From Hymenobacter radiodurans (GTDB taxonomy: Bacteria > Bacteroidota > Bacteroidia > Cytophagales > Hymenobacteraceae): a stretch of DNA of 64,000 nt. Position numbers and translations under genes: made by a program. Location: contig NZ_CP037922.1 in the NCBI RefSeq assembly GCF_004355185.1, positions 992,001 to 1,056,000 on the forward strand, in the 5' to 3' direction. Positions 23,145 to 60,600 of the stretch are shown one piece after another (position 1 is the stretch's first letter; each line of letters begins with the position of its first letter). A model generated the notes under the pieces. The model searched no databases, was not told the DNA's origin, and saw only the letters and a program-made list of their open reading frames with translations.

Positions 23145-24209
23145 TTATACGCTTACCATCCAGCCGTGGGTATCGGCCGCCTGGCCGTTGCGAATGGCAT
23201 CCAGCGCCTTGGAAACCCGCTTGGAGATGGACTCGGGGCCGGTGGGGGGCAAATCGTAGTCTTGATTGCGGTAGCCAATGGTTGCAATGGGGGCAATAGT
23301 GGCCGCTGTGCCTACACCAAATGCTTCCTGCAACGTGCCTTCGGCCTGGGCTTTCAAAATCTCGTCAATAGAAATCTTACGCTCTTCTACTGGTAGATTC
23401 CAGTCGCGGGCTATCTGCAGCACGCTTTTGCGGGTGATACCGTCCAGAATAGAGGTACTGAGGGCCGGCGTAATGATGCGGCCATCAATGACAAACATTA
23501 CGTTCATCGTACCCGATTCTTCTACGTAACGATGCTCTGAGGCATCGGTCCACAGCAGTTGCTGATAACCTTCTTGGTTAGCCTTTTTGGTGGGCAACAT
23601 GGAGGCTCCGTAGTTGCCGGCTGCTTTAGCATAGCCCGCACCACCTTCGGCCGAGCGAACGAACTTCTCTTCAAACCGAACCCGCAGCGGCTTATTATAA
23701 TACAAACCCACAGGGCAGGTAAAAATCATGAAGCGGTAGGAATTAGAGGGCCGAACCCCCACAAACCCATCTGTGGCAAACATAAACGGCCGGATATAGA
23801 GCGCACTGCCAGGGCCATCAGGAATCCAGGCAGAGTCGAGGCGCACGAGCTGGGTGAGGCCCTGCATGAATAGCTCCTCGGGAATAGTAGGCATGCACAT
23901 GCGCTCGGCTGAGGCATTCAGACGGTGAAAGTTGTCGAGGGGACGAAACAATGCTACCTCGCCATCAGCATTTTTGTACGCTTTCATGCCCTCAAAAATT
24001 GCCTGCCCATAGTGTAGGGCCGAGTTGGCGGGGCTGACAGCCATGTCGCCGTAGGGCACGATCTGCGGTTCCTGCCACTCGCCGTCGTGGTAGTCGACCG
24101 CGAACATGTGGTCGGAGAAAATCTTACCGAACTCGAGCGTACTGGCATCGAGGTTCGACAGGCGAGAAGCTGTGGTACGCTGGGTCCGAATGGTCAAGGT
24201 ATCAAGCAT
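23145..24209 (-). CDS. ilvE: branched-chain amino-acid aminotransferase
   Basis: A fold-type IV PLP enzyme that interconverts Leu, Ile and Val with their 2-keto acids. The features seen are YGQAIFEGMKAYKNADGEVALFRP, the Lys-bearing stretch AKAAGNYGAS (Schiff-base lysine), EESGTMNVMFV and SILDGITRKSVL. The length is 354 residues from the ATG at 24,209. An in-frame ATG at 24,290 is rejected because it lies inside the predicted -7 promoter box (24288-24295), so it would not be transcribed. No linked ilv or leu genes. The hairpin at 23078-23115 closes the transcript. Confidence 0.95.
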   Translation of the reverse strand: MLDTLTIRTQRTTASRLSNLDASTLEFGKIFSDHMFAVDYHDGEWQEPQIVPYGDMAVSPANSALHYGQAIFEGMKAYKNADGEVALFRPLDNFHRLNASAERMCMPTIPEELFMQGLTQLVRLDSAWIPDGPGSALYIRPFMFATDGFVGVRPSNSYRFMIFTCPVGLYYNKPLRVRFEEKFVRSAEGGAGYAKAAGNYGASMLPTKKANQEGYQQLLWTDASEHRYVEESGTMNVMFVIDGRIITPALSTSILDGITRKSVLQIARDWNLPVEERKISIDEILKAQAEGTLQEAFGVGTAATIAPIATIGYRNQDYDLPPTGPESISKRVSKALDAIRNGQAADTHGWMVSV

Positions 24210-24287
24210 AGGGTGAGTAATAGAAAGGGTGGGTGGGTAAGGTATCAAACGGCGGACTGGGGTGGGCAGTTGCCGCCGCTCGGGGTG

Positions 24288-24295
24288 CAAAGATA
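24288..24295 (-). promoter_or_regulatory. -7 promoter box of ilvE
   Basis: TATCTTTG on the minus strand matches the Bacteroidota -7 consensus TAnnTTTG exactly. Transcription would start near 24,281, giving a 5' leader of about 70 bases before the ATG at 24,209. The -33 element is weak. Confidence 0.55.
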
Positions 24296-24395
24296 AACGA
24301 AGATCAAGCCACGATCGGGGAGGCGTAGCAGGCAGACAAGAATAGGGTTGGGCGAGTAAGCTAACTACAATTGCCCCCCAGATAATTTCACGCGG

Positions 24396-24944
24396 TTACA
24401 GCCGTGCTTTCCAGGTTACTTCTTCAGAGCCAAGCTCTTGGGCCATCTTCCGACTGAGTACGAATAGATAGTCAGACAGCCGATTCAGGTATATAACGAC
24501 CAGCTCAGCCACAAACGATTCTTCACTTAGATGAATCACCAAGCGCTCGGCGCGCCGACACACGCAGCGCGCTACGTGGGCATACGACACCGCTACATGG
24601 CCGCCGGGCAGAATGAAGGCGCGTAGCTCGGGCAACTCCTCATTCATCCGGTCCATCTCGCTTTCCAACAGCAACACATCTTCCTCGTGCAAATCAGGGA
24701 TCTTCATCTTCGACTTCTCAGGGTCGGAGGCGAGTGAAGCGCCGATGGTGAACAGGCGGTCCTGGATTTCCTTGAGCAAGTCGCGGCGGGGGGCATTTAT
24801 TTCCTGATCACGAACCAAGCCGATATAGGAATTGAGCTCATCCACGGTGCCGTAGCTTTCAATGCGTAGGCTAGCCTTGGAAACGCGGGTGCCGCCGATA
24901 AGAGAGGTAAGCCCTTTATCGCCGGTTTTGGTATAAATCTTCAT
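24396..24944 (-). CDS. cob(I)alamin adenosyltransferase, PduO type
   Basis: 182 residues. It transfers the adenosyl group of ATP to cob(I)alamin to make coenzyme B12. The features seen are the N-terminal ATP loop KIYTKTGDKGLTSLIGG, then SYGTVDELNSYIG, then the helical-bundle active-site stretch HVARCVCRRAERLVIHL and the C-terminal YLNRLSDYLFVLSR, all typical of the PduO/MMAB family. No other cobalamin gene is linked, so it probably serves salvage or B12-dependent enzymes elsewhere (inference). A copy of the G6 motif lies in the 77-base gap upstream, on the ABC side of the locus at 24995-25003. Confidence 0.94.
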   Translation of the reverse strand: MKIYTKTGDKGLTSLIGGTRVSKASLRIESYGTVDELNSYIGLVRDQEINAPRRDLLKEIQDRLFTIGASLASDPEKSKMKIPDLHEEDVLLLESEMDRMNEELPELRAFILPGGHVAVSYAHVARCVCRRAERLVIHLSEESFVAELVVIYLNRLSDYLFVLSRKMAQELGSEEVTWKARL

Positions 24945-25021
24945 GCTTGGTCAATCAACAATAGCGCAACAAGTAATGCCCTTATAAGAGTACCGGGGGG
25001 CAAAAAGTTACTTGCTTATCG

Positions 25022-25750: not shown

Positions 25751-25765
25751 GTGCAGCAGGCCAGG

Positions 25766-28700
25766 TTAGTTCCAAGGAGCAAGAGCAGCGGCCTGAGCGG
25801 CCCGCTGCGCCTCGTATTTACTACGAAAGGTAACATATTCCGCTGGTGCGAGCAATGTGCGCAATTTCTCGAGAGGTTCCTTGGCATAGGCCTCCAATCC
25901 TGCCTGTACAGCCCCTATCACATAGGCCTGTAGCAACGGCGTTGATTCCGGGTTGTAGTCCAGTCCTTTGAGCAGTACATCGTATGCTGCGGCATAATTC
26001 TGCTGGCGGGCATGGAAATCGGCGGCGGCCAACACTCCTTCTGTCAGGAAAGGTGCTTCCTGCGCAAGCTTCGCATAAAGACGTGCAGCATCGGTGGGCT
26101 TGTTGGCGAGGGCAGCCTGAAAATAAAGCCGGTGCGGCTGGTGCTGGGGGGCAAAATAAGCTGTGCTTACCAATTGGCGAAGGTCGGCAGGCTGCTTGGC
26201 TTGCACGTAAAACTTGCCGCGCAGCACATTCCAGTCAGAGGCTACTTCATTTTTAGTGGTCGGCGAAGGTGCGTGTCGCTGTAAAGCTGCGCGCACTGAT
26301 TCTGAGTTGCCTGAGGCTAATACGCGTGGCAGTTGAGCTAGCAAAGCTGCCTGCCGCGCCTTAGGATCAGCAATAGCTTCGGCGGCGCCCAGCAAACTCA
26401 GATGATCAGCATTTGGAACTGCGCTGCGCAGTATGATATACTGAGCTTTTAAAGAGTCAGAAGCCGACGGGTATTGGGTGGCAAAATCCAGCGCAAGAAT
26501 GTTTCGTAACCGTTGGCCCTGCCGAGCTAATGTAGGATTTGGGTCGCGGGCGGCCACGGCAGCTTGTGCTTGGGCCGAATCAGGCTGACCGGCTAAAGCG
26601 AATGCGTAGGCGCGTGGGAGCGCGGCCTCGGTAAATCCATTTCGGGCAGCCTCCGCAAAATAGGCTGCTGCTGTAGCGTAAAGCCCTTGGTCCAGCAGCC
26701 ACATAGCCCGCACTTGCTGGTAATAGGCTGCGCTGGGTGAGTTGCCAATAACCAAGGGAAGCAGCGTAGCCTGTGCCGCTACCGGTCGGCCACCATAGTA
26801 TTGCGTTAAAGCGCGCAGAAATGTGAGTTGCTCAGAATAGGCACTATTACCCGGACGACTATTTGCCTGAGTGAGAGCGGGGAGCAGCGCCATATCGCGG
26901 GCGGCGAGTCGGCGAAGGCCCATATGGTAAAGACGACCAAACTCAGCAGCGCTTAGGTCCTGAGCAGTATCGGCAGATGTTGGGGTACTTTCCTTGTCGC
27001 CGGTAAGGCGGGCCAAAAGGAGCGTATTGCTTTGCAAAGCCACATCATCGGTCTGGGGGGCATTTTCTCGCAAAAAGTCCTGCGCCGCTTTCAGTTCTTG
27101 ATTTTGCACCAAAAAGGCCAACTGGTTGGCTCGCACAACGGCATTATCGGGAGACAGCGCCGCAGCTCGCTGCTGATAAAACAAGACGGAGTCGGTGAGG
27201 GCGGAGCGGGAGTATAGTTGTGCCAGGTCGTTTGCCAAACGTGCACTCTGGGGGGCATTTTTGATGCCTTCCTGCAACGTTTTCTGACGGTCGAAGAAGT
27301 CGGTAGGCTCGTTGAATAAAGCGGCTAACCGCAGGGAGATTTTCTCCGAAGGCGCACGGCTCAAGGCCCGACGAAGAGCATTAATTTCATTCTGACGTTG
27401 GCTCCGAAACCGATAGAGCGCCGCCCGGCCCAAGCTAGCGCGATGGTTGAAGCGGTCGTACACATCGCTCTCAGCGTAATAGCGCTCCGATAAAAGGGCC
27501 AAACCATCGTTGGTAGGCTGTTCTTCGCTTTGCAGCCGACTCAAGTCGCCAAGGTTATTGTAGAAAGCCGCTCGTACCTGATCAAGCACATAGAAGTTAT
27601 TGCGCATCGACACAATCCCCAATGCCCCAATACCAATGATATAGACGGTGTAAAAAGGCAGCCGACGCGGCTCGTACACTACGCGGTACACGCGCAGCCG
27701 CTGCCGGATAAGAGGGGCAAAATTGAGTAAGATATACAGCAAAAAAGCCCCCCCACAGGTCAGCAGGGTCAAAGCCGTGAAGTCGCGACCAGCAGTGATA
27801 AGCGGGTCATTAGCCGTAGCAAGCGCATAGCCTAGGCTGCCGGCCGCCAGCGCCACCAGCACCAGATAAATATGCGCGGCGCCGGGCCAGTAGCCAACCC
27901 AAGTGCCGTAGGTAGCCGCCCGACGCCGCAGCCCCAGCCAGCCCACCAGCACTGCTGGCAGTAGTAGCAAGTAGGGCTCCAAACGGACGTTGGGCAGAAT
28001 CATAAGTTCGCCGTCGTTCAGATAATACAGAAGCAGGGTGCCTAGATAAAGCACGCTAGCCAGCACAAATGGTAACAAGCCAAACCGGCTACCCGGGTTT
28101 TCAGCCTGCGTATTCAGCCACAATAGCCCGTGAATATTCTCGAAGGCCACCCACAGTACCAGCAAAGCAAAAGCCACTGCTCCACTAATGGTCGCGTAGC
28201 TAGTCAGATGCAAGGCAGTGAAAGCAGGTGAGAAGTTGCTTTGTAGAAGTAGAATGGCGCTCAGCGCGCCTACCAATACCGCAAACGTGAGCAGCCGCTG
28301 CCCAAGCGAGGCAGCGGGCCAGAAGGCGTGAAAAGCAAAAGCCGGTAGCCCTAGCATCGCCAATGCCAGTACTAGGAAATACTGTTGCAAGGAGTCGAAC
28401 ACACCGAGTAAATCGGCATTGAGCGACATGAGCAGGAAGATAACCAGCGCCATGCCCACAACGAAGGCCGGGCGGGCCAGGGTACTGACTACCGCCAGAA
28501 AATATACGAGACAAACCGCCAGCAGACCCAGCCAGGCCATAGCTGCCTCGGGCTGAATATATGGCCCCGCTACATCATACGTCTGCGTGACCAGGTAGCC
28601 GTTAAGCCGTAGGGCTAGCTCGTCGAGGCCAATTTTGAGTGGCGCGAGCGTGGTGGGTACGGCCGTGAGTTGAGGCACCGTAACTACGGGCAGCGTCCGC

Positions 28701-29138: not shown

Positions 29139-30035
29139 TTATGAATTGGGAAGGCTAAGCTCGGCGTTGCCGTTCGTTAGCGTATTATCAGTATTCGGCC
29201 CTGAGGTAGTAGCCTGCTGGGGGGCTTTTTTAGTTGCTTCCGATTTACCGGAGCGCAAAAACGGTCGGGGCGAAGGTTCTGGCAGGCCAGCTGCATCGGG
29301 GTGAAACTCGCTAGCAATAATAGCGAATGCGCGCTGCTTGAGCGTTTCTACGTCAGCTAGCGTCATGCCATGCGTTGGAATCGGGTCGTGAAGAACAATG
29401 CGCAAGGGCGAATAGCGCACCCGTAGTTCTCCATCCAAGTCAGGCAGAAAACGATGATTAAGGGGCATCGAGACGGGTACAATAGGAACGCCTGCGCTGA
29501 TAGCGAGCTGAAATGCGCCGTCTTTAAAGGGCAGCATTTCCTCGCCGGGCTTCTTTGAGATTGTGCCCTCCGGAAAAATAACGACCGAGCGGCCCTGTGC
29601 CAGCCCGTTGCGAGCGTGCACAATAGCTCGCCCCCGGCTCAACGCACTCTCCCGGTTTACAGTGATATACACGCGCCCAAATAATGGCCCCCAGAACGGC
29701 ACTTTGGCCAATGAGCTTTTACCCACGATGTTCAGAAAGCCAGGAATAGCTTTGAACAGCATCGGAATGTCGATATAAGAGCTATGGTTGGCCACGTACA
29801 CACACGGCTGGCTGGGGGGCAATTGGTTTTTGCGCACTACCTCCACAGGCATACCCCACATCCGTATCGAAATGATAGACCAGCTCCGATTAAACGTGTG
29901 CAGGTGCCGGTACCAAGCAGGCCGCCGCCCCAGCACCCACTGTGCCGGGTACGTAACCACGAAGGGCATCACAAACCAAAACGTACTCCAGGTAGTGTAA
30001 AGCCGATGTCCGAGAAAACGCAGCAGGTCACGCAT
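29139..30035 (-). CDS. plsC: 1-acyl-sn-glycerol-3-phosphate acyltransferase (PlsC family)
   Basis: 298 residues. The catalytic NHxxxxD motif is NHSSYID (83-89), and the second motif is FPEGTISKK (154-162) with PVSMPLNH after it, as in lysophosphatidate acyltransferases. A hydrophobic N-terminus (FWFVMPFVVTYPAQWVL) anchors it in the inner membrane. The C-terminal 45 residues (KSEATKKAPQQATT...) are low-complexity and not part of the fold. TAAATTTG, a perfect -7 box, sits only 5 bases before the ATG, so the mRNA may be nearly leaderless, or that box is chance. Confidence 0.92.
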   Translation of the reverse strand: MRDLLRFLGHRLYTTWSTFWFVMPFVVTYPAQWVLGRRPAWYRHLHTFNRSWSIISIRMWGMPVEVVRKNQLPPSQPCVYVANHSSYIDIPMLFKAIPGFLNIVGKSSLAKVPFWGPLFGRVYITVNRESALSRGRAIVHARNGLAQGRSVVIFPEGTISKKPGEEMLPFKDGAFQLAISAGVPIVPVSMPLNHRFLPDLDGELRVRYSPLRIVLHDPIPTHGMTLADVETLKQRAFAIIASEFHPDAAGLPEPSPRPFLRSGKSEATKKAPQQATTSGPNTDNTLTNGNAELSLPNS

Positions 30036-31598: not shown

Positions 31599-32174
31599 AT
31601 GCTTCTCATTTCTCACACGCACGAGCCGCTCGAAGCGGGCCTCGACGAAGCTGGCCGGGGCTGTCTGGCCGGGCCGGTGTTTGCGGCGGCGGTAATTTTG
31701 CCCCCCAGCTTCACCTCCGCATTCCTCAACGACTCTAAACAGATGACGGCCCGTCGCCGCGAACTAGTAAAGGCGGAAATATGCGCGGGGGCGGTGGCGT
31801 GGGCGGTAGCTGAAGCTTCACCAGCGGAAATTGCCAGTATTAATATTGCGCAGGCCAGCTATTTAGCCATGCATCGGGCAGTAGCAGCGCTTCCAATGGT
31901 ACCTACGCATCTGATTGTGGATGGCAACCGGTTTCGGGCCTACCCAAGTATTGAGCATACGTGTTTTGTGGGCGGCGATGGGCGCTATGCCAGCATAGCC
32001 GCCGCTTCGGTGCTAGCCAAAACGTTTCGAGATGAGCGAATGCGGACCCTAGCGGCAGAGTTTCCGGAGTATGGTTGGGAGCAAAATGCGGGCTACCCCA
32101 CCAAAACGCACCGCGACGCCATCCGAAAATACGGGCCCACGGAGCATCATCGAATGGGCTTCCGGCTATTGTAG
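31599..32174 (+). CDS. rnhB: ribonuclease HII
   Basis: 191 residues. It removes RNA from RNA-DNA hybrids and single ribonucleotides from DNA. The acidic metal-binding residues are visible in GLDEAGRGCLAGPV (Asp-Glu at 16-17), LNDSKQM and HLIVDGNRF, followed by the conserved GDGRYASIAAASVLAKTFRDE and HRDAIRKYGPTEHHRMGF. Monocistronic between two terminator or gap regions. The G6 motif (reverse orientation) lies in its coding sequence at 31698-31706, read as LPPS. Confidence 0.96.
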   Translation: MLLISHTHEPLEAGLDEAGRGCLAGPVFAAAVILPPSFTSAFLNDSKQMTARRRELVKAEICAGAVAWAVAEASPAEIASINIAQASYLAMHRAVAALPMVPTHLIVDGNRFRAYPSIEHTCFVGGDGRYASIAAASVLAKTFRDERMRTLAAEFPEYGWEQNAGYPTKTHRDAIRKYGPTEHHRMGFRLL

Positions 32175-32659: not shown

Positions 32660-32724
32660 AGAACACAGAAACTAAAGCGGTAAAACAGACTCGTTTCTGG
32701 CTCCCTATACGACTGGGGGGCAAA

Positions 32725-34257
32725 TTAGGCTGTCCGAATGCCAGTTTCGATAGCGCGGCCTGTTTCGGGTACGGCCAATTTGGGCCACGTAAACGTAAAA
32801 ATTGCCCCCTGACCTTCCGCCGATTCTACCTTGATAGTGCCTCCCTGGCGCTCCACTATCTTTTTTACGATAGCCAGCCCTACGCCAGTGCTCTCCAGCG
32901 TGTCGCGGTCAGTGAGGGTTTGAAAAATCACAAATATCCGCTCATGGTACTCCGGATCGATGCCCGGCCCATCGTCGGCAATGGAGAAGGTGTATTGTTG
33001 GCGGTCTTCGCGGCAGCCAATGCGGACGGTGCCCGTTTCGGGATGATCGTGGTATTTGAAGGCGTTGCTGATGAGGTTGGTAAATACCTGTTGTAACTGT
33101 ACCCGGTTGGTAATAAGCGTAGGCAGATAACTTGGCAAATCAACTGTAAACCCATCCGGTGGAGCCAAAGAGTCAACAATTTCGGTGAGCAGCTCCCGCA
33201 CGTTTACACGCTCCTGAGCCTGAGTCGTGCGGCCTACGCGGGCTAGCTCCAGAATTCCGCTGATCAGGTTTTCCATGCGGTGCACGCGAGTCCGCATAAG
33301 CTGCAAGAACTCGCGGATATGATCGGGCAGTTCCTGTCCCAGATCTTCCTCAATCCAGCGGGAAGCGCTTTCAATGCCACGCAACGGCGCTTTCAAATCG
33401 TGAGATACGACGTAGGCAAATTGGTCCAGCTCGTTGTTGCGCCGCTCCAGCTGCGTGATGGTAGAACCGATGGTGCGCGACATCATATTGAGCGAGGTTA
33501 CCAGCTCGCTCAGCTCATCTTGGTCGGTGTCCTTCAGCTGGGTCTGATAATCGCCCCCCGCCACGCGCCGCGACAAGTCCAGCATCATGGCAATGCGCTG
33601 AGCCAGCAGCCGGGTGATATAGGTAGCCCACACAATGCCCATGGTAATGGCAATGATGGTGAGCGAGATAGACAGCATGCGCGTCTGCTGAATACTATCG
33701 GTGAGCTTGTCGCGGCGCTCCAAGCGGGCCGCCAGTTCATCGGCTTCGAACCCATTAAACAAGGCTCGAATCTGGTCCATGAGCAGCTTGCCCGTCAGGC
33801 CTTCCGCCAGCAATCTGTGCTCTAGGCCTTCCAAGGCCACCTGATCGGGGTTGCGGCGCAACGCCTCGCGCTTCTCACTGATCATTAAGTGGGAGTAAGA
33901 CGCCCACTGTTGAAATAAGCGCTGGGCCCGCTCTAGGCGTCCGCGCTGGGGGCTGTCGAGGGGCATTTGTTGGCGCAGATTCACAAATCGGCCTAGCAGG
34001 TTGCGCTCGCCCATATGGTAAGGCTCCAGCATGGCCTCATTGCCCACCAGCATATAGCCGCGAAAGCCCGTTTCCATGTCAATAATATTGCGGAGCAGCG
34101 TGGTGGCTTCTTCCGTCCGCAGCTGCGACTCTTCTACCCGCAACGAGTTGCGCAGCACTTTGCGCGACAGCTGATAATTGATAATTACCACTGCGGCAAA
34201 CAAAACGGAGATGGCCAGAAAGCCGGCGAAGAGTTTGGTAGAAAGCTTGAGCTTCAT
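32725..34257 (-). CDS. CHASE3-HAMP sensor histidine kinase
   Basis: 510 residues from the ATG at 34,257 (an upstream in-frame TTG is less likely). Order: TM1 (8-30), a periplasmic four-helix CHASE3-type sensor (NIIDMETGFRGYMLVGNEAMLEPY, about 57-80), TM2 (about 195-217), HAMP, dimerisation domain with the phospho-His in FAYVVSHDLKAPLRG (about residue 290), and the ATPase domain with N-box QVFTNLISNAFKYHDH, G1 IADDGPGID, and G2 STGVGLAIVKKIV. Its neighbours are a CZB protein (34279-34674) upstream and a single-domain response regulator downstream. The three probably form one signalling unit. Confidence 0.95.
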   Translation of the reverse strand: MKLKLSTKLFAGFLAISVLFAAVVIINYQLSRKVLRNSLRVEESQLRTEEATTLLRNIIDMETGFRGYMLVGNEAMLEPYHMGERNLLGRFVNLRQQMPLDSPQRGRLERAQRLFQQWASYSHLMISEKREALRRNPDQVALEGLEHRLLAEGLTGKLLMDQIRALFNGFEADELAARLERRDKLTDSIQQTRMLSISLTIIAITMGIVWATYITRLLAQRIAMMLDLSRRVAGGDYQTQLKDTDQDELSELVTSLNMMSRTIGSTITQLERRNNELDQFAYVVSHDLKAPLRGIESASRWIEEDLGQELPDHIREFLQLMRTRVHRMENLISGILELARVGRTTQAQERVNVRELLTEIVDSLAPPDGFTVDLPSYLPTLITNRVQLQQVFTNLISNAFKYHDHPETGTVRIGCREDRQQYTFSIADDGPGIDPEYHERIFVIFQTLTDRDTLESTGVGLAIVKKIVERQGGTIKVESAEGQGAIFTFTWPKLAVPETGRAIETGIRTA

Positions 34258-34830: not shown

Positions 34831-34838
34831 TAGTTTTG
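34831..34838 (+). promoter_or_regulatory. -7 box upstream of gcvT
   Basis: TAGTTTTG matches the TAnnTTTG consensus and lies 40 bases before the gcvT ATG at 34,878. Its last three bases are the start of a reverse-oriented G6 motif (TTGCCCCCC, 34836-34844). The -33 element is not clear. Confidence 0.45.
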
Positions 34839-34877
34839 CCCCCCAGAACCCACCCTCGTACCTCTACTTATTTACCG

Positions 34878-37202: not shown

Positions 37203-37652
37203 TTAGCTCGGGGGCGAATCGAGCACGAGCGTTACGGGTCCATCGTTGAGCAAACTTACCTGCATATCCGCCCCAAACTCGCCGGTGGGCACAGGCTGAC
37301 CTAACAGGCCTTCCACTTGCCGCACAAACTGCTGATACAGCGCGTCGGCCAGTGGAGGCGGGGCGGCGCCTATGTAGCTGGGGCGGTTGCCTTTGCGGGC
37401 ATCGGCGAGCAGCGTAAATTGGCTGACCACTAATATTTGCCCCCCAATGTCCTGCACGCTACGATTCATCTTGCCTTCCTCGTCGGAGAAAATGCGCAGT
37501 TGCACAAGTTTACGCGCCATCCAATCGAGGGACTTTGTATCATCGTGGGGGGCAAATCCGGCCAGCACCAGCAGCCCTGGCCCTATTTCCCCTACTGTTC
37601 GGCCCGCCACTACCACGCGGGCCTCCTGCACCCGCTGCACTACTACACGCAT
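37203..37652 (-). CDS. dtd: D-aminoacyl-tRNA deacylase
   Basis: 149 residues from the ATG at 37,652, a normal length. An in-frame extension to 37,697 is unneeded. It hydrolyses D-aminoacyl-tRNAs, including Gly-tRNA(Ala). Seen are [15 protein letters not shown], the catalytic loop [19 protein letters not shown] (SQFTL), and the cross-subunit Gly-cis-Pro-type stretch [20 protein letters not shown]. The G6 motif occurs twice inside this gene, in opposite orientations (37437-37445 and 37547-37555). Confidence 0.96.
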
Positions 37653-39253: not shown

Positions 39254-39285
39254 ATAGATAGTGAGAAGCTAATTATTTAAAGGCC

Positions 39286-39377
39286 GTCATGCAGAGCGGA
39301 GCGAAGCATCTCGCGTGTTTAGTGGGATTACTAATCCTGCGTCAGCGCGCGAGATGCTTCGCTCCGCTCTGCATGAC
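39286..39377. repeat. REP-like inverted repeat with 30-bp perfect arms
   Basis: Positions 39286-39315 (GTCATGCAGAGCGGAGCGAA...) are the exact reverse complement of 39348-39377, around a 32-base centre. It fills the gap between the convergent 37,782 gene and mltG and could end both. The sequence GTCATGC-AGC-GAAGCATCTC belongs to the dispersed family seen also at 35999, 57085 and 60861. Confidence 0.85.
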
Positions 39378-39418
39378 CGTTAGGAGTGTGATTCTAGTGA
39401 TTACGATCTTCAGATAAT

Positions 39419-47306: not shown

Positions 47307-47366
47307 GGAAAAGCAAAACGAAAAACGAGCCGCGAAAGTCAGGCAGTAGGCCGGGGGGCATTTACC

Positions 47367-47374: not shown

Positions 47375-47414
47375 GGCAGGACTGGGGGGCAAAAGCAACG
47401 TTGGTGCCCGGCCG

Positions 47415-48734
47415 CTAAGCGCCACGCTGGGGGCGCTGCAACACGGCATTACGCTGTTGCACTTGCTCTGCTTTTGCCCGAATTTCGGCCAGTCCCAGAT
47501 TATGCACACTGCCCAAGTGCGTGGTCGTAAAGTCCCGGTGTGGCACGTAGCTACCATCGTTCACCGCCCGGCCCACCTGCTGGTACGCCTCGCGGAAAGG
47601 CACTCCGGCCTGGATAAGCTGATTGATATTTTCTACGGAGAAAACACCGTCGTATTTGGCCTGGTTCAGCAAGTCGGGCTTGATTTTCAATTGTGGCAAA
47701 GCAAACAGCAGCATATCCAGAATATCCACGAACTGCATCATCGGCTCAAAAAGCAGCTCTTTCAGAAGCTGGAAGTCGCGATGGTAGCCGCTGGGCAGGT
47801 TGTTCACGCACAGCGTGATGGTGTTGGGCAACGCCTGTAAAGCATTGCAACGGGCCCGCACCAGCTCAAATACATCTGGGTTTTTCTTGTGGGGCATGAT
47901 GCTGGAGCCCGTGGTGAAGGCGGGGGGCAATTCTACAAACGCCAGATCCTGACTGTTGTAGAGCACTAAGTCATACGCCATTTTGGAAAGCGTAGCCCCC
48001 ACACCGGCCAGCGCAAAAGCTACCGTTTTCTCGGTTTTGCCGCGTAGCATCTGCGCGCCCACGGCGCTAACCGCTAAGTGGCCAAAGCCCATTTGCTGAG
48101 TTGTCAGCTGCCGATCTATCGGGAAACTGCTGCCAAAACCGGCCCCAGAACCGAGTGGATTCTGATCGGCGACAGTGTGCGCGGCTTCAAACAGCGCAAT
48201 ATCCAGCAACAAATGCTCGGCGTAGGCGGAGAACCACAAGCCGAAGCTGCTGGGCATAGCGGCCTGAAAATGCGTGTATCCGGGCATTAAATCGGCCTGG
48301 TGGGCCTCAGCCTTTTGCAGCAGAATATCCACCAGCGCCATGATTTTAGCGGCAGTTTGCTCCGTGTAGTCTTTCAGGAAAAGCTGAATAGCAGTCAGCA
48401 CCTGGTCGTTGCGGGAGCGGGCGGTATGAATCTTCTTGCCAGCATCACCGAACTTCTCCGTTAGGTAGAATTCGATTTTCGAATGAACGTCTTCAAAGCT
48501 ATCCTCGATGACGAAGCTTCCGGCCGCAATTTCCGCTTCCAATTCATTGAGGCCCTGAACTAACTGGTCTTTTTCCTCGACGGAAATCAGTCCAACCTGC
48601 GCCAGCATTACGGCCTGCGCCTTGGAAGCCAGTACGTCGAAATGAGCCAGGTACATATCCAGCTCCCGATCTTTACCGACGGTGAACCGCTCTATTTTTT
48701 CGTCAACAGCTATACCCTTTTCCCAGATTTTCAT
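47415..48734 (-). CDS. argH: argininosuccinate lyase
   Basis: 439 residues. Last step of arginine synthesis: argininosuccinate to arginine plus fumarate. Seen are HSKIEFYLTEKFGDAGKKIHTARSRNDQV, the HT(HF)-type stretch LMPGYTHFQAAMPSSFG, and the fumarase-superfamily signature GSSIMPHKKNPD. It starts 3 bases after the argE-like stop and is the last gene of the minus-strand group argB-argE-argH. Confidence 0.97.
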   Translation of the reverse strand: MKIWEKGIAVDEKIERFTVGKDRELDMYLAHFDVLASKAQAVMLAQVGLISVEEKDQLVQGLNELEAEIAAGSFVIEDSFEDVHSKIEFYLTEKFGDAGKKIHTARSRNDQVLTAIQLFLKDYTEQTAAKIMALVDILLQKAEAHQADLMPGYTHFQAAMPSSFGLWFSAYAEHLLLDIALFEAAHTVADQNPLGSGAGFGSSFPIDRQLTTQQMGFGHLAVSAVGAQMLRGKTEKTVAFALAGVGATLSKMAYDLVLYNSQDLAFVELPPAFTTGSSIMPHKKNPDVFELVRARCNALQALPNTITLCVNNLPSGYHRDFQLLKELLFEPMMQFVDILDMLLFALPQLKIKPDLLNQAKYDGVFSVENINQLIQAGVPFREAYQQVGRAVNDGSYVPHRDFTTTHLGSVHNLGLAEIRAKAEQVQQRNAVLQRPQRGA

Positions 48735-48737: not shown

Positions 48738-49805
48738 TTAAAAACTAAAGCCTTCCAGCAATTCGATGTAGCCCTTAATGCCGGCTCTCACCTCGCTAAG
48801 GTAAATGTATTCGTCGGGGGTATGGGAGCGGGCCGAATCGCCGGGACCCACTTTGATCGTGTCAAACGGCATAACTGCTTGATCAGAAAGCGTGGCGGAC
48901 CCAAATAGCTTACGGCCCAAATTTGCCCCCCGCTGCACCAGCGGGTGCGTCGGAGCTATGCGCGAAGAGTTCAGATGCACCGACCGTGGCGTCACGTCGG
49001 CTTGTACGTGCTCGCGCACAACAGCCACTATTTCTTCGTTGGAGTACAGCTCGTTGGTGCGCACATCGACCACAAACCGACAGGTATCCGGCACCACGTT
49101 ATGCTGCGAGCCAGCCTGTATCTGCGTCACCGTCATTTTCACGGGCCCCAGAAATTCCGACTCGTTTGGGAAACGGTAGCTTCGCAACCACTGTATATCG
49201 TCCAGCGCTTTGTAGAGAGCGTTTTCGCCTTCGTCGCGGGCAGAGTGGCCGGTACGACCGTGGGCTACGCAATCCAAGACTACCAACCCTTTTTCCGCAA
49301 TAGCCAGATTCATTTGGGTGGGCTCACCGACGATGCCTAAGTCAATCCTGCCCAGCTGAGGCAAAATGCTGCGAATGCCATTCGCGCCCGAAACTTCCTC
49401 CTCCGCGGTAATGGCGCAGATGAGGTTGAAGGCAGGTGGATTCTCCTCGAAATAAAGAAACGTGGCCAGCAAACTCACGGCTGAGGCGCCCGCGTCATTG
49501 CTACCCAGCCCAATGAGCTTGTCGCCTTCCAACACAGCACCAAAAGGATCGGCGGTCCAGCTTGCGCCGGGCTTCACAGTGTCGTGGTGTGAGTTGAGCA
49601 GGATGGTAGGCTTGTGGGGGGCAAAATGCTTTGATACCGCCCACACATTGTTGCCCAATCGGTTAGGCTGAGCGTCATGTGCGGCCAGAAAATCGAAAAT
49701 TAGCTCAGCCGTTTTGTCTTCCTCCCGCGAAAAAGACTGGGTTTGAATCAGCTGAATCAGTAAAGCAATGGCATCTTCGGAAAGCTGCTCGATTAGTCCC
49801 GGCAT
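48738..49805 (-). CDS. argE: M20-family N-acyl amino-acid deacylase (acetylornithine/acylcitrulline deacetylase)
   Basis: 355 residues with the di-zinc peptidase M20 motifs: NSHHDTVKPGASWTADPFGA (His and bridging Asp), LGSNDAGASAVSLLATFLY, ITAEEEVSGANGI (general-base Glu-Glu), and the late His in PGDSARSHTPDEYI. In pathways that carbamylate an acylated ornithine, as the ArgF' here implies, this enzyme removes the acyl group from acyl-citrulline rather than acyl-ornithine. That shift is inference. Its start overlaps the argB end by 13 bases, so the two are translationally coupled. Confidence 0.88.
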   Translation of the reverse strand: MPGLIEQLSEDAIALLIQLIQTQSFSREEDKTAELIFDFLAAHDAQPNRLGNNVWAVSKHFAPHKPTILLNSHHDTVKPGASWTADPFGAVLEGDKLIGLGSNDAGASAVSLLATFLYFEENPPAFNLICAITAEEEVSGANGIRSILPQLGRIDLGIVGEPTQMNLAIAEKGLVVLDCVAHGRTGHSARDEGENALYKALDDIQWLRSYRFPNESEFLGPVKMTVTQIQAGSQHNVVPDTCRFVVDVRTNELYSNEEIVAVVREHVQADVTPRSVHLNSSRIAPTHPLVQRGANLGRKLFGSATLSDQAVMPFDTIKVGPGDSARSHTPDEYIYLSEVRAGIKGYIELLEGFSF

Positions 49806-51739: not shown

Positions 51740-52926
51740 TGAAAAAGGTAGTTTTAGCGTACAGTGGCGGTCTGGATACGTCGTACTGCGTGGTGTATCT
51801 GACCAAAGAGCTAGGCTTGGAAGTACACACGGTCATTGTCAACTCGGGGGGCTTTTCTGCCGAGGAATTGCAAAGCATTGAGACGCGGGCCTACGAGTTG
51901 GGTTCGTCCAAGCACGAAGTAATCGATGTCACGGAGCGCTTCTATAAAGACTGTCTGCGGTTTTTGCTGTTCGGCAACGTCCTGAAAAACGACACCTATC
52001 CGCTCTCTGTTAGCGCCGAGCGCATGTTTCAGTCGCTGGCACTAGCCGAGTATGCTCGAGAGCATAAGGCCGACTACATCGCCCACGGTAGCACCGGCGC
52101 CGGCAACGACCAGGTGCGCTTCGATGTGGCTTTCTCCGTGATTGCGCCCAACACCGAAATCATTACGCCCATCCGCGACCAGAAGCTCTCCCGTCAAGCC
52201 GAAATCGAGTATCTGCGCAGCCACGGCGTAGAAATGAGTTGGGAAAAGGCCAAATATTCCATTAACAAAGGTATCTGGGGCACGAGCGTGGGCGGCGTCG
52301 AAACGCTGACTTCGAATCAAGCGCTGCCCGAAACGGCTTATCCCACCCAGTTGCAGCAAGCAGAACCTACTTCTATCGAAGTTACCTTCGAAAAAGGTGA
52401 GCCTGTAGCCTTGAACGGCCAGAAAATGCCCCCCGTGCAGCTTATTCAAGAGTTGAACGAGCTAGCCGGTCAATACGCTATCGGCCGCGACATCCACGTG
52501 GGCGACACGATTCTGGGTATCAAGGGCCGCGTAGGCTTCGAAGCTCCGGCTCCGCTGATTCTGATCAAAGCGCACCATTTGTTGGAGAAGCACACCTCAT
52601 CGCGTTGGCAGCTACTGCATAAGGACTACATCGCCAACTGGTACGGCACGCTGCTGCACGAAGCCCAATACCTTGATCCAGTTATGCGCGACATGGAAGC
52701 TTTCTTGGAGTCGTCGCAGGCGCGCGTGTCGGGCACGGTGTTTATCAAGCTGAAGCCATATCAGTTTGAGCTGCAAGGCATTGATTCCAAGTATGATATG
52801 ATGCGCTCCAAAGTGGCGACCTACGGCGAGGAAAATGACGCCTGGGATGCCCGCGACGCGCAAGGCTTCATCAAAATATTCAGCAACCAGCTTAAAATTC
52901 ACAGCAGCTTCAATGGCGAAGGTTAA
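51739..52926 (+). CDS. argG: argininosuccinate synthase
   Basis: 395 residues. It joins citrulline and aspartate with ATP. N-terminal P-loop VVLAYSGGLDTSYCVVYL, the HGSTGAGNDQVRFD motif, YSINKGIWGTSVGGVETL and LIKAHHLLEKHTSSRWQLLHKDYIANWYG are all present. Overlaps the acyltransferase stop by one base and overlaps argC by 14 bases, a tightly coupled operon. Confidence 0.97.
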   Translation: MKKVVLAYSGGLDTSYCVVYLTKELGLEVHTVIVNSGGFSAEELQSIETRAYELGSSKHEVIDVTERFYKDCLRFLLFGNVLKNDTYPLSVSAERMFQSLALAEYAREHKADYIAHGSTGAGNDQVRFDVAFSVIAPNTEIITPIRDQKLSRQAEIEYLRSHGVEMSWEKAKYSINKGIWGTSVGGVETLTSNQALPETAYPTQLQQAEPTSIEVTFEKGEPVALNGQKMPPVQLIQELNELAGQYAIGRDIHVGDTILGIKGRVGFEAPAPLILIKAHHLLEKHTSSRWQLLHKDYIANWYGTLLHEAQYLDPVMRDMEAFLESSQARVSGTVFIKLKPYQFELQGIDSKYDMMRSKVATYGEENDAWDARDAQGFIKIFSNQLKIHSSFNGEG

Positions 52927-53896: not shown

Positions 53897-55059
53897 TGGA
53901 TTTATTCAACGTTTACCCGCTTGTTAACATCACGCCGGTAAAGGCGCTGGGCGCAACGCTTTGGGACGAAAACGGCCAAGAGTACCTGGATTTTTACGGC
54001 GGCCACGCCGTTATTTCTATTGGTCACAGCCACCCGCACTACGTCCGCCGCATCAGTGAGCAGCTGAACCAGATCGGGTTTTACTCTAACTCCGTTCAAA
54101 TCCCAATTCAGGCGGAACTGGCGCAAAAGCTGGGTGAGGTGTCGGGCTATCCTGACTATAGCTTGTTCCTGTGTAACTCTGGTGCCGAAGCCAACGAGAA
54201 TGCACTGAAGCTGGCTTCGTTTCATACGGGCAAAAAGCACGTCGTTGCCTTCAAAGGCGCCTTCCACGGCCGCACCTCCGGCGCTGTAGCTGCCACTGAT
54301 AATGCCAAGATTGTCGCGCCCTTCAACGCGGGCCACGGCATCTCCTTCGTCGGCTATGATCTGGCCGAAGTGGAGCGCGTGATACAGACTGAAGAGGTTT
54401 GCGCCGTCATCGTGGAGCCAATTCAGGGCGTGGGGGGCATTATTATGCCGTCTGACGAATTTCTCCAAGGCCTCGCGGCGCTCTGCAAAACTCACGGCGT
54501 GGTGCTCATTGCTGATGAAGTGCAAAGTGGCTACGGTCGTAGCGGCCGTTTCTTTGCCCATCAGCATGCTGGTATTCAGCCCGATATTATTTCGGTAGCC
54601 AAGGGCATGGGCAACGGCTTCCCTATCGGTGGCATCCTGATTTCGCCGGAGTTGAAGGCGTCGTATGGCTTGCTGGGCACTACGTTTGGCGGCAACCATT
54701 TGGCCTGCGCCGCAGCGCTGGCAGTATTAGAGGTCATTGAGCAGGAAAATCTGATAGCCCACGCCAACGAACTGGGGGGCTTTTTACGGGCCGAATTGGA
54801 AGCCCACGCTGGCGCTCAGGAAATCCGTGGCCGTGGCCTGATGGTCGGCATCAAGTATGACTTCCCCATCAAAGACCTGCGCGACAAACTGCTGATGGAA
54901 AAGCACATCTTTGTGGGCAATGCCTCCGACCCAATGGTGCTCCGCCTGCTGCCGCCGCTCAACATCACGAAGGTAGAGGTAGACCAGTTCCTACAGGCAT
55001 TGTACGACTTGACAGAGAAGTCAGTCGATGTCATTCACCAGGCTTCGGCACTGGATTAG
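53896..55059 (+). CDS. argD: acetyl(acyl)ornithine aminotransferase
   Basis: 387 residues, a class III PLP aminotransferase. Landmarks are DFYGGHAVISIGHSHP, LCNSGAEANENALKLAS, FKGAFHGRTSGAVAATDN, the PLP Asp in VLIADEVQSGYGRSGRFFAHQ, the Schiff-base Lys in IISVAKGMGNGFPIGGIL, and LGTTFGGNHLACAAALAVLE. It converts acylglutamate semialdehyde to acylornithine. Last gene of the coupled acyltransferase-argG-argC-argD set. The repeat at 55072-55163 lies between it and carA. Confidence 0.95.
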   Translation: MDLFNVYPLVNITPVKALGATLWDENGQEYLDFYGGHAVISIGHSHPHYVRRISEQLNQIGFYSNSVQIPIQAELAQKLGEVSGYPDYSLFLCNSGAEANENALKLASFHTGKKHVVAFKGAFHGRTSGAVAATDNAKIVAPFNAGHGISFVGYDLAEVERVIQTEEVCAVIVEPIQGVGGIIMPSDEFLQGLAALCKTHGVVLIADEVQSGYGRSGRFFAHQHAGIQPDIISVAKGMGNGFPIGGILISPELKASYGLLGTTFGGNHLACAAALAVLEVIEQENLIAHANELGGFLRAELEAHAGAQEIRGRGLMVGIKYDFPIKDLRDKLLMEKHIFVGNASDPMVLRLLPPLNITKVEVDQFLQALYDLTEKSVDVIHQASALD

Positions 55060-56260: not shown

Positions 56261-56305
56261 ATTGGCCTAGAACGGCATGCCCAGCACCATGTAAATCTGA
56301 TAGCT

Positions 56306-57115: not shown

Positions 57116-57142
57116 AGCTATAACTCCTAACGCACTACTCTT

Positions 57143-57508
57143 ATGCAAGCAAAAGGTAGAAGTTTCCCAAACTGGGGATACATATTGTTAGGAGCGGTGG
57201 CGTTTGCGGCGTTTTATTTCATCAAGAACCTCAAGGAGGAAGATTTCTTCAAACTAGCAGGCAAGCATCCCGATATGGTTCTTTCGGCTATGAGTGGAAA
57301 GAATATCTCTCCCAGAATACTTAGTCGTACGGGCAAGATTGTTTCTAAAAACTTTCAGGTCGATAAACCTGGCTCTAAGCGAGATTCGCTCACATTTCGA
57401 GTCATCCTGAAGGGCGAAAAATCTACCGCAACTATTAAAACCAGGGTGATTATGCAGCCATCTGGTGAGTGGAAGATGGTTAAGAGCGACACTGTTTTCA
57501 CCGATTAA
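57143..57508 (+). CDS. small membrane-anchored protein of unknown function
   Basis: 121 residues: a short basic start, one membrane segment (WGYILLGAVAFAAFYFI, about 11-28), then an extracytoplasmic domain of about 90 residues with a beta-hairpin-like end (TFRVILKGEKSTATIKTRVIMQPSGEWKMVKSD). This outline resembles Coa1/Tim21-type or other small membrane-tethered beta domains, but only in shape. AT-richer than its neighbours, like the 56,306 gene, and probably part of the same insert between carA and carB. Confidence 0.65.
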   Translation: MQAKGRSFPNWGYILLGAVAFAAFYFIKNLKEEDFFKLAGKHPDMVLSAMSGKNISPRILSRTGKIVSKNFQVDKPGSKRDSLTFRVILKGEKSTATIKTRVIMQPSGEWKMVKSDTVFTD

Positions 57509-57606
57509 ATCACTAACACCAACCTGCCTACATACTCTTTTGGCAGGCTCCGCACCACTGCCTTTGAACATGACCGCACCAGTGGTCTGTTACCTCAACT
57601 CTAAGA

Positions 57607-60600
57607 ATGGAAAAACCCAACAAAGTCCTCATCCTCGGTTCTGGCGCACTTAAAATTGGCGAAGCCGGAGAGTTCGATTATTCTGGCTCGCAAGCCCTGA
57701 AGGCGCTGAAAGAGGAAGGCATTCGTACCATCCTTATCAACCCCAACATTGCCACTGTGCAGACGTCGGACAACATTGCCGACGACGTATACTTCCTGCC
57801 CGTGACGCCCTACTTCGTGGAGGAAGTTATCAAGAAGGAAAAGCCCGATGGCATTCTGGTAGCCTTTGGGGGGCAAACTGCGCTGAATTGCGCTGTTGCG
57901 TTGTTCCGCGATGGCGTATTTGACAAGTACAATGTGAAGGTGCTAGGCACGCCCGTGCAGTCAATTATCGACACTGAGGACCGGGATATTTTCAAGGAGA
58001 AGCTCGAGCAGATTGGGGTGCTTTCGGCCCGTAGCGTGGCCGTGACGACCATGGAGGACGCGCTAGCCGCCGCCGAGAAAATCGGTTTCCCGATTATTGT
58101 GCGGGCGGCGTTTGCGCTGGGTGGCCTCGGCAGCGGTTTCGCCAATAACATGGACGAGTTGCGGACCCTGGCCCAAAAATCCTTCACAACCTCCGACCAA
58201 ATTCTGGTGGAAGAGTCGTTGAAGGGCTGGAAGGAAGTGGAGTACGAAGTGGTGCGCGACCAGTATGATAACTGCATCACGGTCTGCAACATGGAGAACT
58301 TCGACCCCATCGGTATCCATACCGGGGAGAGCATCGTGGTGGCGCCTTCGCAGACATTGAGCAACCGCGAGTATCACAAGCTGCGCAGCATCGGTATTAA
58401 GACTATTCGTCACCTCGGTATTGTGGGCGAGTGCAACATTCAGTATGCCCTCGACCCCGTATCGGAGGACTACCGCGTGATTGAGGTTAATGCCCGCTTG
58501 TCGCGCTCCTCGGCGCTGGCTTCTAAGGCCACGGGCTACCCGCTGGCGTTTGTGGCGGCCAAGCTGAGCTTGGGCTACTCGTTGTCGGAGCTGAAAAACA
58601 GCGTGACCCAGACCACTTCGGCCTTCTTCGAGCCGGCTCTTGACTACGTGGTGGTGAAGCTGCCGCGCTGGGATTTGGGCAAGTTCGAGGGCGTAAACCG
58701 GCAGATTGGCTCCGCTATGAAAAGCGTAGGCGAGGTAATGGCCATCGGCAAATCCTTCGAGGAAGCCATCCAGAAAGGCCTGCGGATGCTGGATACCGGC
58801 AAGCGCGGCTTTGTGGCCAACAAGCCCGAGCAGGTGGACAACGCTACCATCGACAAGCTGCTGAGTGAGCCAAACGAGGAGCGCATCTTCGCTATTAATC
58901 TGGCGTTTGAGGCCGGCTATTCCATTGGGCAAGTGCACGATCTGACCAAGATTGACCACTGGTTCTTGCAGCGCCTGCTGACCATTTTCGAGCTGGGCAA
59001 GAAGCTGGCCGCTAAGCGCGGCAACGGCCTAGATGCCCTGGAAACGGGTCTGCTGCGCGACGTGAAGAAAGCCGGTTTCTCGGACCAGCAGATTGCCGTG
59101 AAGTTGCTGGGCGAAGGCGACGTGAAAGCCGACGAACTGTTGGTGCGGGCCCGCCGCAAAGCCCTGGGTGTGCTGCCAGTCATCAAACAGATTGACACGC
59201 TAGCAGCTGAATTCCCAGCCAAAACCAACTACCTCTACAGCACCTACCACGGCACCGAAAACGACCTCGCGCCGGAAACCAATAAGTCGGTGGTGGTGCT
59301 GGGCTCGGGCGTGTACCGCATTGGTAGCTCCGTGGAGTTCGACTGGTGCGGCGTAAATGCCGTGCAGACGGCCGCCGAAGAGGGCTACAAAACCATCATC
59401 ATCAACTACAACCCCGAAACCGTTTCTACGGACTACGACGTATCGGACCGGCTATACTTCGAGGAACTTAGCTTCGAGCGGGTGATGGATATTTTGGAGT
59501 TCGAGCAGCCCAACGGCGTGATTCTGAGCACTGGGGGGCAAATTCCGAATAACCTCGCCACCCGCTTGGCTGATGCCAACGCCCCCATCCTGGGCACGGC
59601 TCCGGCCCGCATTGATGAGGCCGAGAACCGCCACAAGTTCAGCAGTATCATGGATGAGCTGGGCATTGGGCAGCCCCGCTGGAAGGAACTGACATCCTTG
59701 GAGGCAATGTTTGAGTTTGTGGGCGAGGTAGGTTACCCCGTGCTGATTCGCCCGAGCTACGTGCTGTCGGGAGCGTCCATGAACGTGGTTTCCAACGCGT
59801 TTGAAATGGAGTCGTTCCTGAAAGCAGCTACCGAAGTAAGCGCCGAATACCCGGTGGTAGTGTCGGAGTTTATCCAAGAAGCCAAGGAAATTGAGCTGGA
59901 CGCAGTGGCCGACAAAGGCGAAATCGTGAGCTACGCCATTTCCGAGCACGTGGAATTTGCCGGCGTGCACTCCGGCGACGCCACCATGTACTACCCGCCC
60001 CAGCGCGTGTACGTAGGTACGGTGCGCAAGCTCAAAATCATTGCCGAGAAGATTGCCAGGCGCTATGAAATCAGCGGTCCGTTCAACATCCAGTTTCTGG
60101 AGAAAAACCGCGAAATCCGGGTGATTGAGTGCAACATCCGCGCCTCTCGCTCCTTCCCGTTCGTGTCGAAAGTATCGGGCAACAACCTAATTAAGAAAGC
60201 CACTCAGGTGCTGCTGGGCAAGAAAGTGGAGCGCGACGCGAGCGAACTGGTCTACGACCTGCCCTTCGTGGGCGTGAAGGCCCCGCAGTTCTCGTTTACC
60301 CGTCTGCCCGGCGCCGACCCCGTGCTGCGCGTAGATATGGTGAGCACAGGCGAGGTAGGCTGCCTGGGCGACACGGCCGAGGAAGCGCTGCTGAAATCGA
60401 TGCTGAGCGTGGGCTACAAAATTCCGCAGAAGTCGGTACTGATTTCCAGCGGCCCCATCATCTCCAAGATAGCGCTGCTGGAATCGGCGCGGCTGCTGGT
60501 GCAAAGTGGCTATAGCATCTACGCCACGCAGGGCACGCACCGCTTCTTTGCCGAGCACAACGTGCCCAGCTCCCTCGTCTTCTGGCCCGACGACCACCAG

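Follow-up and report, generated by a model that had tools for sequence, protein, structure and literature searches.

A clade-restricted G-run and A-tract word in Hymenobacter radiodurans and its sisters, possibly a self-DNA uptake signal

Why should a single nine-base word recur across the core genes of a bacterium? The question is raised by a 64,000-nucleotide stretch of the Hymenobacter radiodurans genome (contig NZ_CP037922.1, C2:992001-1056000; hereafter the window), in which an earlier note had reported 25 exact copies of GGGGGGCAA, 18 on the plus and 7 on the minus strand, between positions 23244 and 59541. All of these copies are present. The word occurred 0.59 times on average, and at most 3 times, in 100 dinucleotide shuffles of the window, and 3.25 copies were predicted by a fifth-order Markov model built from the window's own sequence. 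The excess was even larger in the complete genome (4.92 Mb, including a second replicon, C1, of 190 kb): the genome-wide count proposed in the note gave 790 forward and 843 reverse copies (1,633 in total), versus 11 + 6 = 17 for the same word read backwards. Since the two strands carry 790 and 843 copies, the 18:7 ratio is present in the window without being a property of the genome; it is part of a local excess of 82 plus over 48 minus exact sites in the 384 kb beginning with the window. The word belongs to a longer motif that is abundant in a single clade of four genomes, is held in place against sequence drift, and may act as a signal for the uptake of self-DNA.

The structure of the motif was analyzed in a 742-kb set assembled from 19 of a series of 20 evenly spaced stretches of 20 kb each, the part of the window that starts at base 22,001, and the next 320 kb; bases 1-22,000 of the window, stretch L036 (overlap), and the stretches of C1 were excluded. 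This set contained 274 exact sites. Their flanks were biased upstream (position -2: C 0.48 or G 0.24; position -1: T 0.70 or C 0.25) and downstream (position +9: A 0.78 or T 0.22, never C or G; position +10: A or T 0.92; position +11: T 0.58), roughly as the note had described them, with C or G and then T before the word and AWT after it. Thus, GGGGGGCAA is only part of a longer, looser signal comprising a pyrimidine, six Gs and a C (Y-G6-C), followed by a short A-tract. G6C was followed by AAAA, AAAT, AATT, ATTT, or TTTT at 435 of 540 sites, versus 13.6 expected from the tetramers found after GC. Tetramers that are equally AT-rich and contain a TpA step were seen 35 times, about twofold the 16.1 expected on the same basis and far fewer than the 198 expected under position independence (chi-square 662, 11 degrees of freedom, hairpin-associated sites excluded); ATAT was seen once, where position independence would predict 46.9. 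At 402 of the 540 sites, the As and the Ts after them formed a run of 4 to 6 bases. The A-tract was partly accepted after five Gs (188 of 493 sites) and not after four (45 of 1,396), and runs of seven Gs were rare (10 of 12 with the tract). All five A-tract forms were found in both orientations within genes. That AAAA and TTTT are equivalent after G6C is indicative of duplex shape.

Near-matches also outnumbered those of control words, as would be expected if sites decay or are gained stepwise. After exclusion of 174 sites differing at the first base of the tract, mostly G6CT, 177 near-matches of the 12-mer YGGGGGGCAWWW remained, versus 34 for the reversed word. For the 9-mer, 344 near-matches, including 73 copies of GGGGGGCAT, were found, compared with 113 when the word was reversed and 204 when it was permuted. 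An early Markov test had hinted that there were none; it was misleading because the model had been trained on sequence holding the sites. The TTTT form overlaps with transcription terminators, having a hairpin partner at 34 of 139 sites and lying between genes at 81 of 136. A terminator origin of the motif was rejected because this form occurs within genes both ways (29 sense, 26 antisense), as do the other forms.

To relate the sites to genes, a simple codon-usage script was used, which called 571 genes covering 81% of the 742 kb. The exact sites were distributed as 110 sense, 112 antisense, and 52 intergenic copies; the intergenic share (19.0%) equaled that of the sequence, and each of the six combinations of frame and orientation held 3 to 65 sites. 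Protein sequence therefore does not explain the word, as the note had claimed. In called genes of at least 450 bp, the motif had no preferred orientation (145 sense, 143 antisense). Chromosome arms were set from the sign of the GC skew, and the first 20 kb of the contig (10 plus, 2 minus) were kept apart. The strand of the full motif did not follow the replichores, with 56 plus and 59 minus sites on one arm and 50 plus and 63 minus on the other, so that this sample gave no pattern along the origin-terminus axis, on which the note had suggested plotting the word. Spacing did not differ from random (coefficient of variation 0.94 and p = 0.14 for the full motif, 0.96 and p = 0.32 for the exact sites); an early hint of even spacing (dispersion 0.49 in 20 stretches, p = 0.025) was gone with the 742 kb. 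Since the sites are indifferent to genes, strand, and replichore and are randomly spaced, the motif is a DNA-level signal, unrelated to protein, mRNA, or leading strand.

These strand data bear on two of the kinds of word that the note had listed, Chi-like recombination sites and FtsK-orienting polar sequences (KOPS), both of which are skewed toward the leading strand. A KOPS-like word directing FtsK would be short, G-rich, and spread over the whole chromosome, as is GGGGGGCAA, and could be reconciled with the local strand excesses (82:48 over 384 kb and 10:2 in the contig's first 20 kb). It is already contradicted by the even strand counts, genome-wide and by arm, and must be considered extremely improbable. 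Very unlikely, too, is a Chi-like site read by a helicase-nuclease of the AddAB type. The word is G-rich, and 30 of 30 family genomes encode a PDDEXK_1 nuclease domain, usually within a frame of about 1,000 residues. However, this nuclease family is also present in lineages devoid of a word, no strand bias by replichore was seen, and the word is about 100 times as frequent as its reversed control. RecC (PF04257) was detected in 0 of the 18 genomes searched. RecBCD reads its site on single-stranded DNA, for which an equivalence of duplex A-tracts is ill-suited. In H. radiodurans itself, the PDDEXK_1 domain lies in a frame of 351 residues overlapped by two upstream frames (387 and 313 residues) with no Pfam match. 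This AddB-like locus (L281:2911-5929) is thus split over overlapping frames, in contrast to the single frame of about 1,000 residues of most relatives, and may be a broken gene or an assembly error.

Among 204 genomes of the family (Hymenobacteraceae), including that of H. radiodurans, four contained 1,326 to 1,633 copies of GGGGGGCAA and the other 200 contained 4 to 71. The three sisters of H. radiodurans in this group are G071, G073 (H. roseosalivarius DSM 11622), and G095 (Hymenobacter sp. BT188). When a tree was built from the isocitrate lyase genes of 85 genomes, the four carriers formed one group (support 100/99), and the eleven genomes adjoining them had 18 to 45 copies each. The 20-kb stretches around the isocitrate lyase gene of 20 outgroup genomes contained the word three times (once each in G050, G061, and G070), and the full motif was found once in 400 kb of these genomes.

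The sisters are 84-87% identical to H. radiodurans over the aligned core stretch, and each comparison of retention was conditioned only on the H. radiodurans genome. Exact sites were intact at 20 of 24 aligned places in G095 and 19 of 24 in G073. The corresponding proportions of intact control 9-mers were 0.32 and 0.23 for all words, 0.41 and 0.32 for G- or C-rich words, and 0.43 and 0.40 for words with five G or C in a row. In G071, 11 of 21 sites were intact (controls 0.28, 0.41, and 0.42). This lower value results from one-base losses in G runs, which are numerous in this genome (for example at the sites aligned to window positions 23244, 29814, and 37547), lower its word count, and are probably assembly errors; G071 was therefore excluded from the following test. 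Third codon positions inside the full motif were identical at 90 of 96 places in G095 and 92 of 96 in G073, versus 7,230 of 10,255 (0.705) and 6,756 of 10,415 (0.649) elsewhere (Fisher p = 3e-8 and 5e-13, respectively). The comparison of orthologues called for in the note hence shows that the word is kept above the surrounding third positions (94-96% versus 65-71%). Conservation of the A-tract class across species was not supported, as 4 of the changed tracts stayed in the class and 3 left it.

Outgroup sequences were informative about the origin of the sites. Twelve of the 25 window sites could be aligned to at least one outgroup, ten of them to at least ten. At these ten sites, the outgroups differed from the word by a median of 1 to 5 mismatches (0 to 7 overall), similar to the mean of 2.25 per 9-mer in the background. 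The word was intact in 1 of 162 outgroup states, in one outgroup at site 41131. Each of the two other sites had a single aligned outgroup, which was intact in one case (31698). Residues encoded at the sites differed from the outgroup majority in 12 of 32 codons versus 544 of 3,281 elsewhere (p = 0.007), and positions shared by at least 90% of the outgroups were changed in 5 of 20 site codons versus 121 of 2,353 (p = 0.003). Both tests covered codons with at least five aligned outgroups in ten hand-chosen open reading frames (ORFs), and the p-values are optimistic because the five changed conserved codons lie in four sites. Other sites involved synonymous changes in conserved Gly-Gly pairs (44330, 45310). 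Taken together, these alignments show that the motif persists despite drift of the sequence and, at some sites, despite constraint on the encoded protein.

The full motif occurs 35 times in the window, 31 of them beyond base 22,000. Its density of 0.59 per kb corresponds to about 2,800 copies on the chromosome by extrapolation, not by count. Of the 25 copies of GGGGGGCAA, 21 are followed by a full four-base A-tract and 4 by three tract bases (41131, 44330, 45310, and 57868). The sites found by exact-word and full-motif scans of the window are given below with coordinates, strand, and the tetramer following G6C; "kept" denotes an exact GGGGGGCAA 9-mer intact in all three sisters.

671..681, plus: TTTT, in the low-GC SusCD stretch; this form overlaps with terminators
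11794..11804, plus: TTTT, in the low-GC SusCD stretch
12338..12348, minus: TTTT, inverted pair with 12357, terminator-like
12357..12367, plus: TTTT, inverted pair with 12338, terminator-like
23244..23254, plus: AAAT, intact in G095 and G073
24369..24379, minus: AATT, between ORFs
24788..24798, plus: ATTT
24995..25005, plus: AAAA, between ORFs
26146..26156, plus: AAAA, kept
27055..27065, plus: ATTT
27250..27260, plus: ATTT
29219..29229, plus: TTTT
29814..29824, plus: AATT
31696..31706, minus: AAAA, kept
32715..32725, plus: AAAT, touches an ORF end, kept
34834..34844, minus: AAAA
36225..36235, minus: AAAT, in a gene, FAPQ versus, for example, MAAQ or LAAQ in aligned outgroups
37435..37445, minus: AAAT
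37547..37557, plus: AAAT
37988..37998, plus: AATT, one G of LGGN versus T in 10/10 aligned outgroups
40066..40076, plus: AATT, P versus R in 18/20 outgroups
40432..40442, minus: TTTT
41131..41139, plus: GGGGGGCAA with short A-tract AAAC
43428..43438, plus: AAAT, malate synthase gene, GGQ versus EGQ in 20/20 outgroups
44330..44338, plus: GGGGGGCAA with short A-tract AATG, malate synthase gene, residues same in 17/20 outgroups
45310..45318, plus: GGGGGGCAA with short A-tract AAAG, isocitrate lyase gene, residues same in 20/20 outgroups
45964..45974, plus: AAAA, isocitrate lyase gene
47353..47363, plus: ATTT
47384..47394, plus: AAAA, between ORFs
47922..47932, plus: AATT
48921..48931, minus: AAAT
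49616..49626, plus: AAAA
50472..50482, minus: AAAA, kept
51846..51856, plus: TTTT
52424..52434, minus: ATTT
54774..54784, plus: TTTT
57868..57876, plus: GGGGGGCAA with short A-tract AAAC, carbamoyl-phosphate synthase gene
59533..59543, plus: AAAT, carbamoyl-phosphate synthase gene, kept
61895..61905, plus: TTTT

The window also contains a palindromic repeat (39276-39390) with two fully complementary arms of 30 bases (39286-39315 and 39348-39377). It gave 37 alignments in 14 of 41 sequences from the H. radiodurans genome and many matches in the three sisters. It was rejected as a carrier of the motif, since its copies and their close surroundings contain 0 of 366 G6CAWW and 1 of 146 G6CTTTT sites. 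A search of the window for RNA families gave zero matches.

The first 22,000 bases of the window have a GC content of 47% and carry genes for TonB receptors and SusD-type proteins, whereas the adjoining core genes, at 52-56% GC, carry the word. This segment is likely to be acquired DNA. The statement in the note that it has no copy holds for the exact 9-mer (zero copies) and fails for the full motif, which is present as four G6CTTTT copies including the inverted pair. Replicon C1 has 7 copies of GGGGGGCAA in its 190 kb, all inside four 20-kb stretches at 60-65% GC.

When 85 family genomes were screened for dispersed words, with a single 20-kb stretch representing each, other lineages proved to have other words. 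AGTGGCCTA or relatives of it were found in G036 and G129 (H. wooponensis) and, more weakly, in G034 (stretches L170, L188, and L228). Counted genome-wide in 120 genomes, AGTGGCCTAG occurred 1,404 times in G036, 1,300 in G034, 1,149 in G129, and 774 in G121, and at most 29 times elsewhere. Genome-wide counts cover GGGGGGCAA and AGTGGCCTAG; the remaining lineage words come from the 20-kb stretches. CCCTACCCC was found in G046 and G091, the similar CCTACCCCC in G090, which is distant from them on the tree (L177, L178, and L172), and ACCTAGGGC in three genomes of genus g6 (L209, L213, and L215). In genus g5, which includes Pontibacter amylolyticus (G148), P. sp. HSC-36F09 (G188), and P. arcticus (G151), 20 of 22 genomes contained AGGTATAG (10 genomes), AAGTATAA (6), or AACTATAG (4) (L103, L189-L208, and L216). 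These three TATA-centred words belong to different branches and resemble one another as dialects do. The best words of the remaining genomes mostly had z-scores below 12, with the exceptions of G047 (16.4), G198 (13.7), G197 (12.7), and G070 (12.0); some g5 words scored no higher than these exceptions, and their support comes from recurrence in many genomes. On the isocitrate lyase tree, five of the seven word groups formed one side of a supported branch, and groups C and E2 did not. Screens of other phyla and families showed that words based on the HIP1-like palindrome ACGGCCGT are abundant in Chloroflexota stretches L158, L161, and L164, and that TGATAATC occurs 18 times in Microscillaceae stretch L130, with many of these copies in AT-rich contexts that resemble one another.

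The words of other clades are retained between relatives above background in most comparisons (the share of all 9-mers intact is given in brackets). AGTGGCCTA was kept at 9 of 10 places at 79% identity (0.14) and ACTGGCCTA at 6 of 13; GGTATAGC was kept at 10 of 10 at 85% identity (0.30). The values for AGGTATAG were 10/12, 9/17, and 4/12 (0.30, 0.27, and 0.16), those for AAGTATAA and AACTATAG 11/21 (0.24) and 19/34 (0.30), those for ACCTAGGG 9/15 and 10/15 (0.31 and 0.40), and those for GGGGTAGG 9/12 (0.43) and, with G090, 0/1.

A site of chromosome architecture or segregation could give rise to several of these features. A clade-specific protein binding duplex DNA would organize or mark the chromosome, and selection would keep about 0.6 sites per kb. 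The motif is strand-indifferent, all 20 spaced 20-kb stretches contain GGGGGGCAA (5 to 12 exact copies each), and its G-tract adjoins an A-tract, a combination that is a strong structural signal. However, the sample showed random spacing and no replichore pattern, and selection would have to act on each of the many sites that are kept, including those at residues that are otherwise conserved. Sister clades have different words, which is unusual for architectural proteins, and we consider this explanation unlikely.

We attach a similarly low likelihood to a word of the kind represented by HIP1, the highly iterated palindrome of cyanobacteria, for which a lineage-specific DNA modification or a bias of mismatch repair would create and protect the word, its abundance being a by-product of repair. 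HIP1 is likewise highly repeated and is reported to be replaced in some genomes by alternate words with matching methyltransferases (PMC4390886), and several sister-lineage words of the Hymenobacteraceae hold palindromic tetramers (GGCC, CTAG, TATA). In contrast, GGGGGGC with its A-tract is not palindromic, and the tract is a shape class, accepting AAAA and TTTT and avoiding ATAT, which would be unexpected from a base-specific methyltransferase. The outgroup states, at a median of 1 to 5 changes from the word, do not reveal a single fixed mismatch, and replicon C1 has few copies in the same cell.

Of the kinds of word listed in the note, an uptake sequence is the best fit. We propose, with a probability of about 40%, that Y-G6-C with its A-tract is a word for the uptake of self-DNA, spread by biased uptake and recombination. 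The likeness rests on the copy number, the indifference to genes and strand, the restriction to one clade, the resistance to drift and in places to protein constraint, the rarity on C1, the replacement by other words in other clades, and the combination of a core with an AT-tract. The excess of near-matches and the lack of exact copies in the SusCD stretch also count in its favor. According to this proposal, point mutations on the stem of the clade would have given rise to the word. A protein at the cell surface or in the periplasm would recognize the duplex by direct readout of the G-tract and C of the core and, in the A-tract, through the narrow minor groove or bend, and DNA would enter by a pilus-free route ending in ComEC. 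DNA bearing the motif would be taken up and recombined more often, leading to spread of the word, and a change in receptor specificity between lineages would lead to different words. More tentatively, as a somewhat doubtful extension, the Hymenobacteraceae may represent a third independent origin of uptake dialects, partly read by shape, in which pilus-free recognition of self-DNA has its word swapped wholesale between clades. The clade of H. roseosalivarius would use G6C with an A-tract, that of H. wooponensis AGTGGCCTAG, another genus ACCTAGGGC, and Pontibacter words such as AGGTATAG, AAGTATAA, and AACTATAG. In the same phylum, Riemerella columbina has been reported to be competent, with its own DNA competing better than foreign DNA; the study lists AT-rich k-mers as untested candidates (PMC7965970). 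DUF5689 is described as part of a protein essential for transformation in Riemerella (PMC8459023).

Several observations weigh against the uptake proposal. No known outer-membrane uptake route was found, since profile searches of the four clade genomes detected a T2SSE/PilB-type ATPase (PF00437) in 0 of 4 and DUF5689 (PF18942) in 0 of 4. ComEC and HHH_3 were present in 29 of 29 and 30 of 30 genomes, with and without a word; like PDDEXK_1, they do not discriminate, because they occur in every genome searched. The sites have neither a preferred orientation in genes nor a non-random spacing. Retention of the full motif was less striking than that of the exact word, the site being either intact or altered to another tract of the class at 21 of 29 aligned places in G095, 22 of 29 in G073, and 16 of 26 in G071. 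Neither C1 nor the SusCD stretch is proven to be foreign, and both may lack the word simply as recent arrivals. Finally, among the matches listed in a search of the open-access literature, there was no study of transformation in Hymenobacter. Nor did the matches listed include a publication on such words in Hymenobacteraceae. Over all genomes searched for it, PF18942 was detected in 28 of 63 at E <= 0.001, 22 of them over the cut-off. Of 29 family genomes searched, a single one had a T2SSE ATPase over the cut-off; it is located in stretch L229 (G047:C6:66301-67419), from a sister devoid of the word.

Clades of one family thus have different abundant words, two of which were counted genome-wide (774 to 1,633 copies), and at copies of the GGGGGGCAA motif, residues are changed at positions where the protein is otherwise conserved. 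If these are uptake words, the evolution of uptake specificity, so far described for Pasteurellaceae and Neisseriaceae, would be testable by comparing sister clades that differ in their word and by finding the receptor. If they are not, a motif that spreads through whole genomes and is maintained would have some other reader. In either case, the density of the motif may flag acquired DNA in Hymenobacteraceae genomes.

The motif resembles several known systems in part. Like Chi and KOPS, it is a short word over-represented throughout the chromosome; unlike them, it has no leading-strand skew. Like HIP1 and its alternates in cyanobacteria, it is a highly repeated short word replaced by others in some genomes, although HIPs are palindromes tied to methyltransferases and this motif is asymmetric with an A-tract class. 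It also resembles the uptake signal sequence (USS) of Haemophilus influenzae and other Pasteurellaceae, which also combines a short, non-palindromic, GC-containing core with an AT-tract subject to a shape preference. In H. influenzae, preferred sites seem to be stiff or rigidly bent at their AT-tracts (PMC7811141); 1,465 core copies, an origin by point mutation, and subclade-specific words have been reported (PMC7811141, PMC1626085). Differences from USS are an unrelated sequence, a host in the phylum Bacteroidota, a clade with no match to a type IV pilus-type ATPase, and no preference for gene orientation, known uptake sequences being reported to prefer one orientation in reading frames (PMC2346458). 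The DNA uptake sequences (DUS) of Neisseriaceae number 943 to 5,918 copies per genome and form dialects consistent with phylogeny (PMC3630211). Lineage-specific words are likewise found here, five of the seven word groups following the one-gene tree. Neisserial dialects share a CTG core and vary at few bases, whereas the words of Hymenobacteraceae clades are mostly dissimilar, those of Pontibacter resembling one another; in further contrast to DUS, an inverted partner at most 45 bases upstream was present at 4 of 347 G6CAWW sites. We do not file the motif as a member of the USS or DUS family because no PilB-type ATPase or DUF5689, no orientation preference, and no even spacing were found. At best, it would work like one, sharing with USS and DUS the hundreds to thousands of dispersed copies on both strands, in coding and non-coding DNA, and the gain by point mutation and retention at orthologous places.

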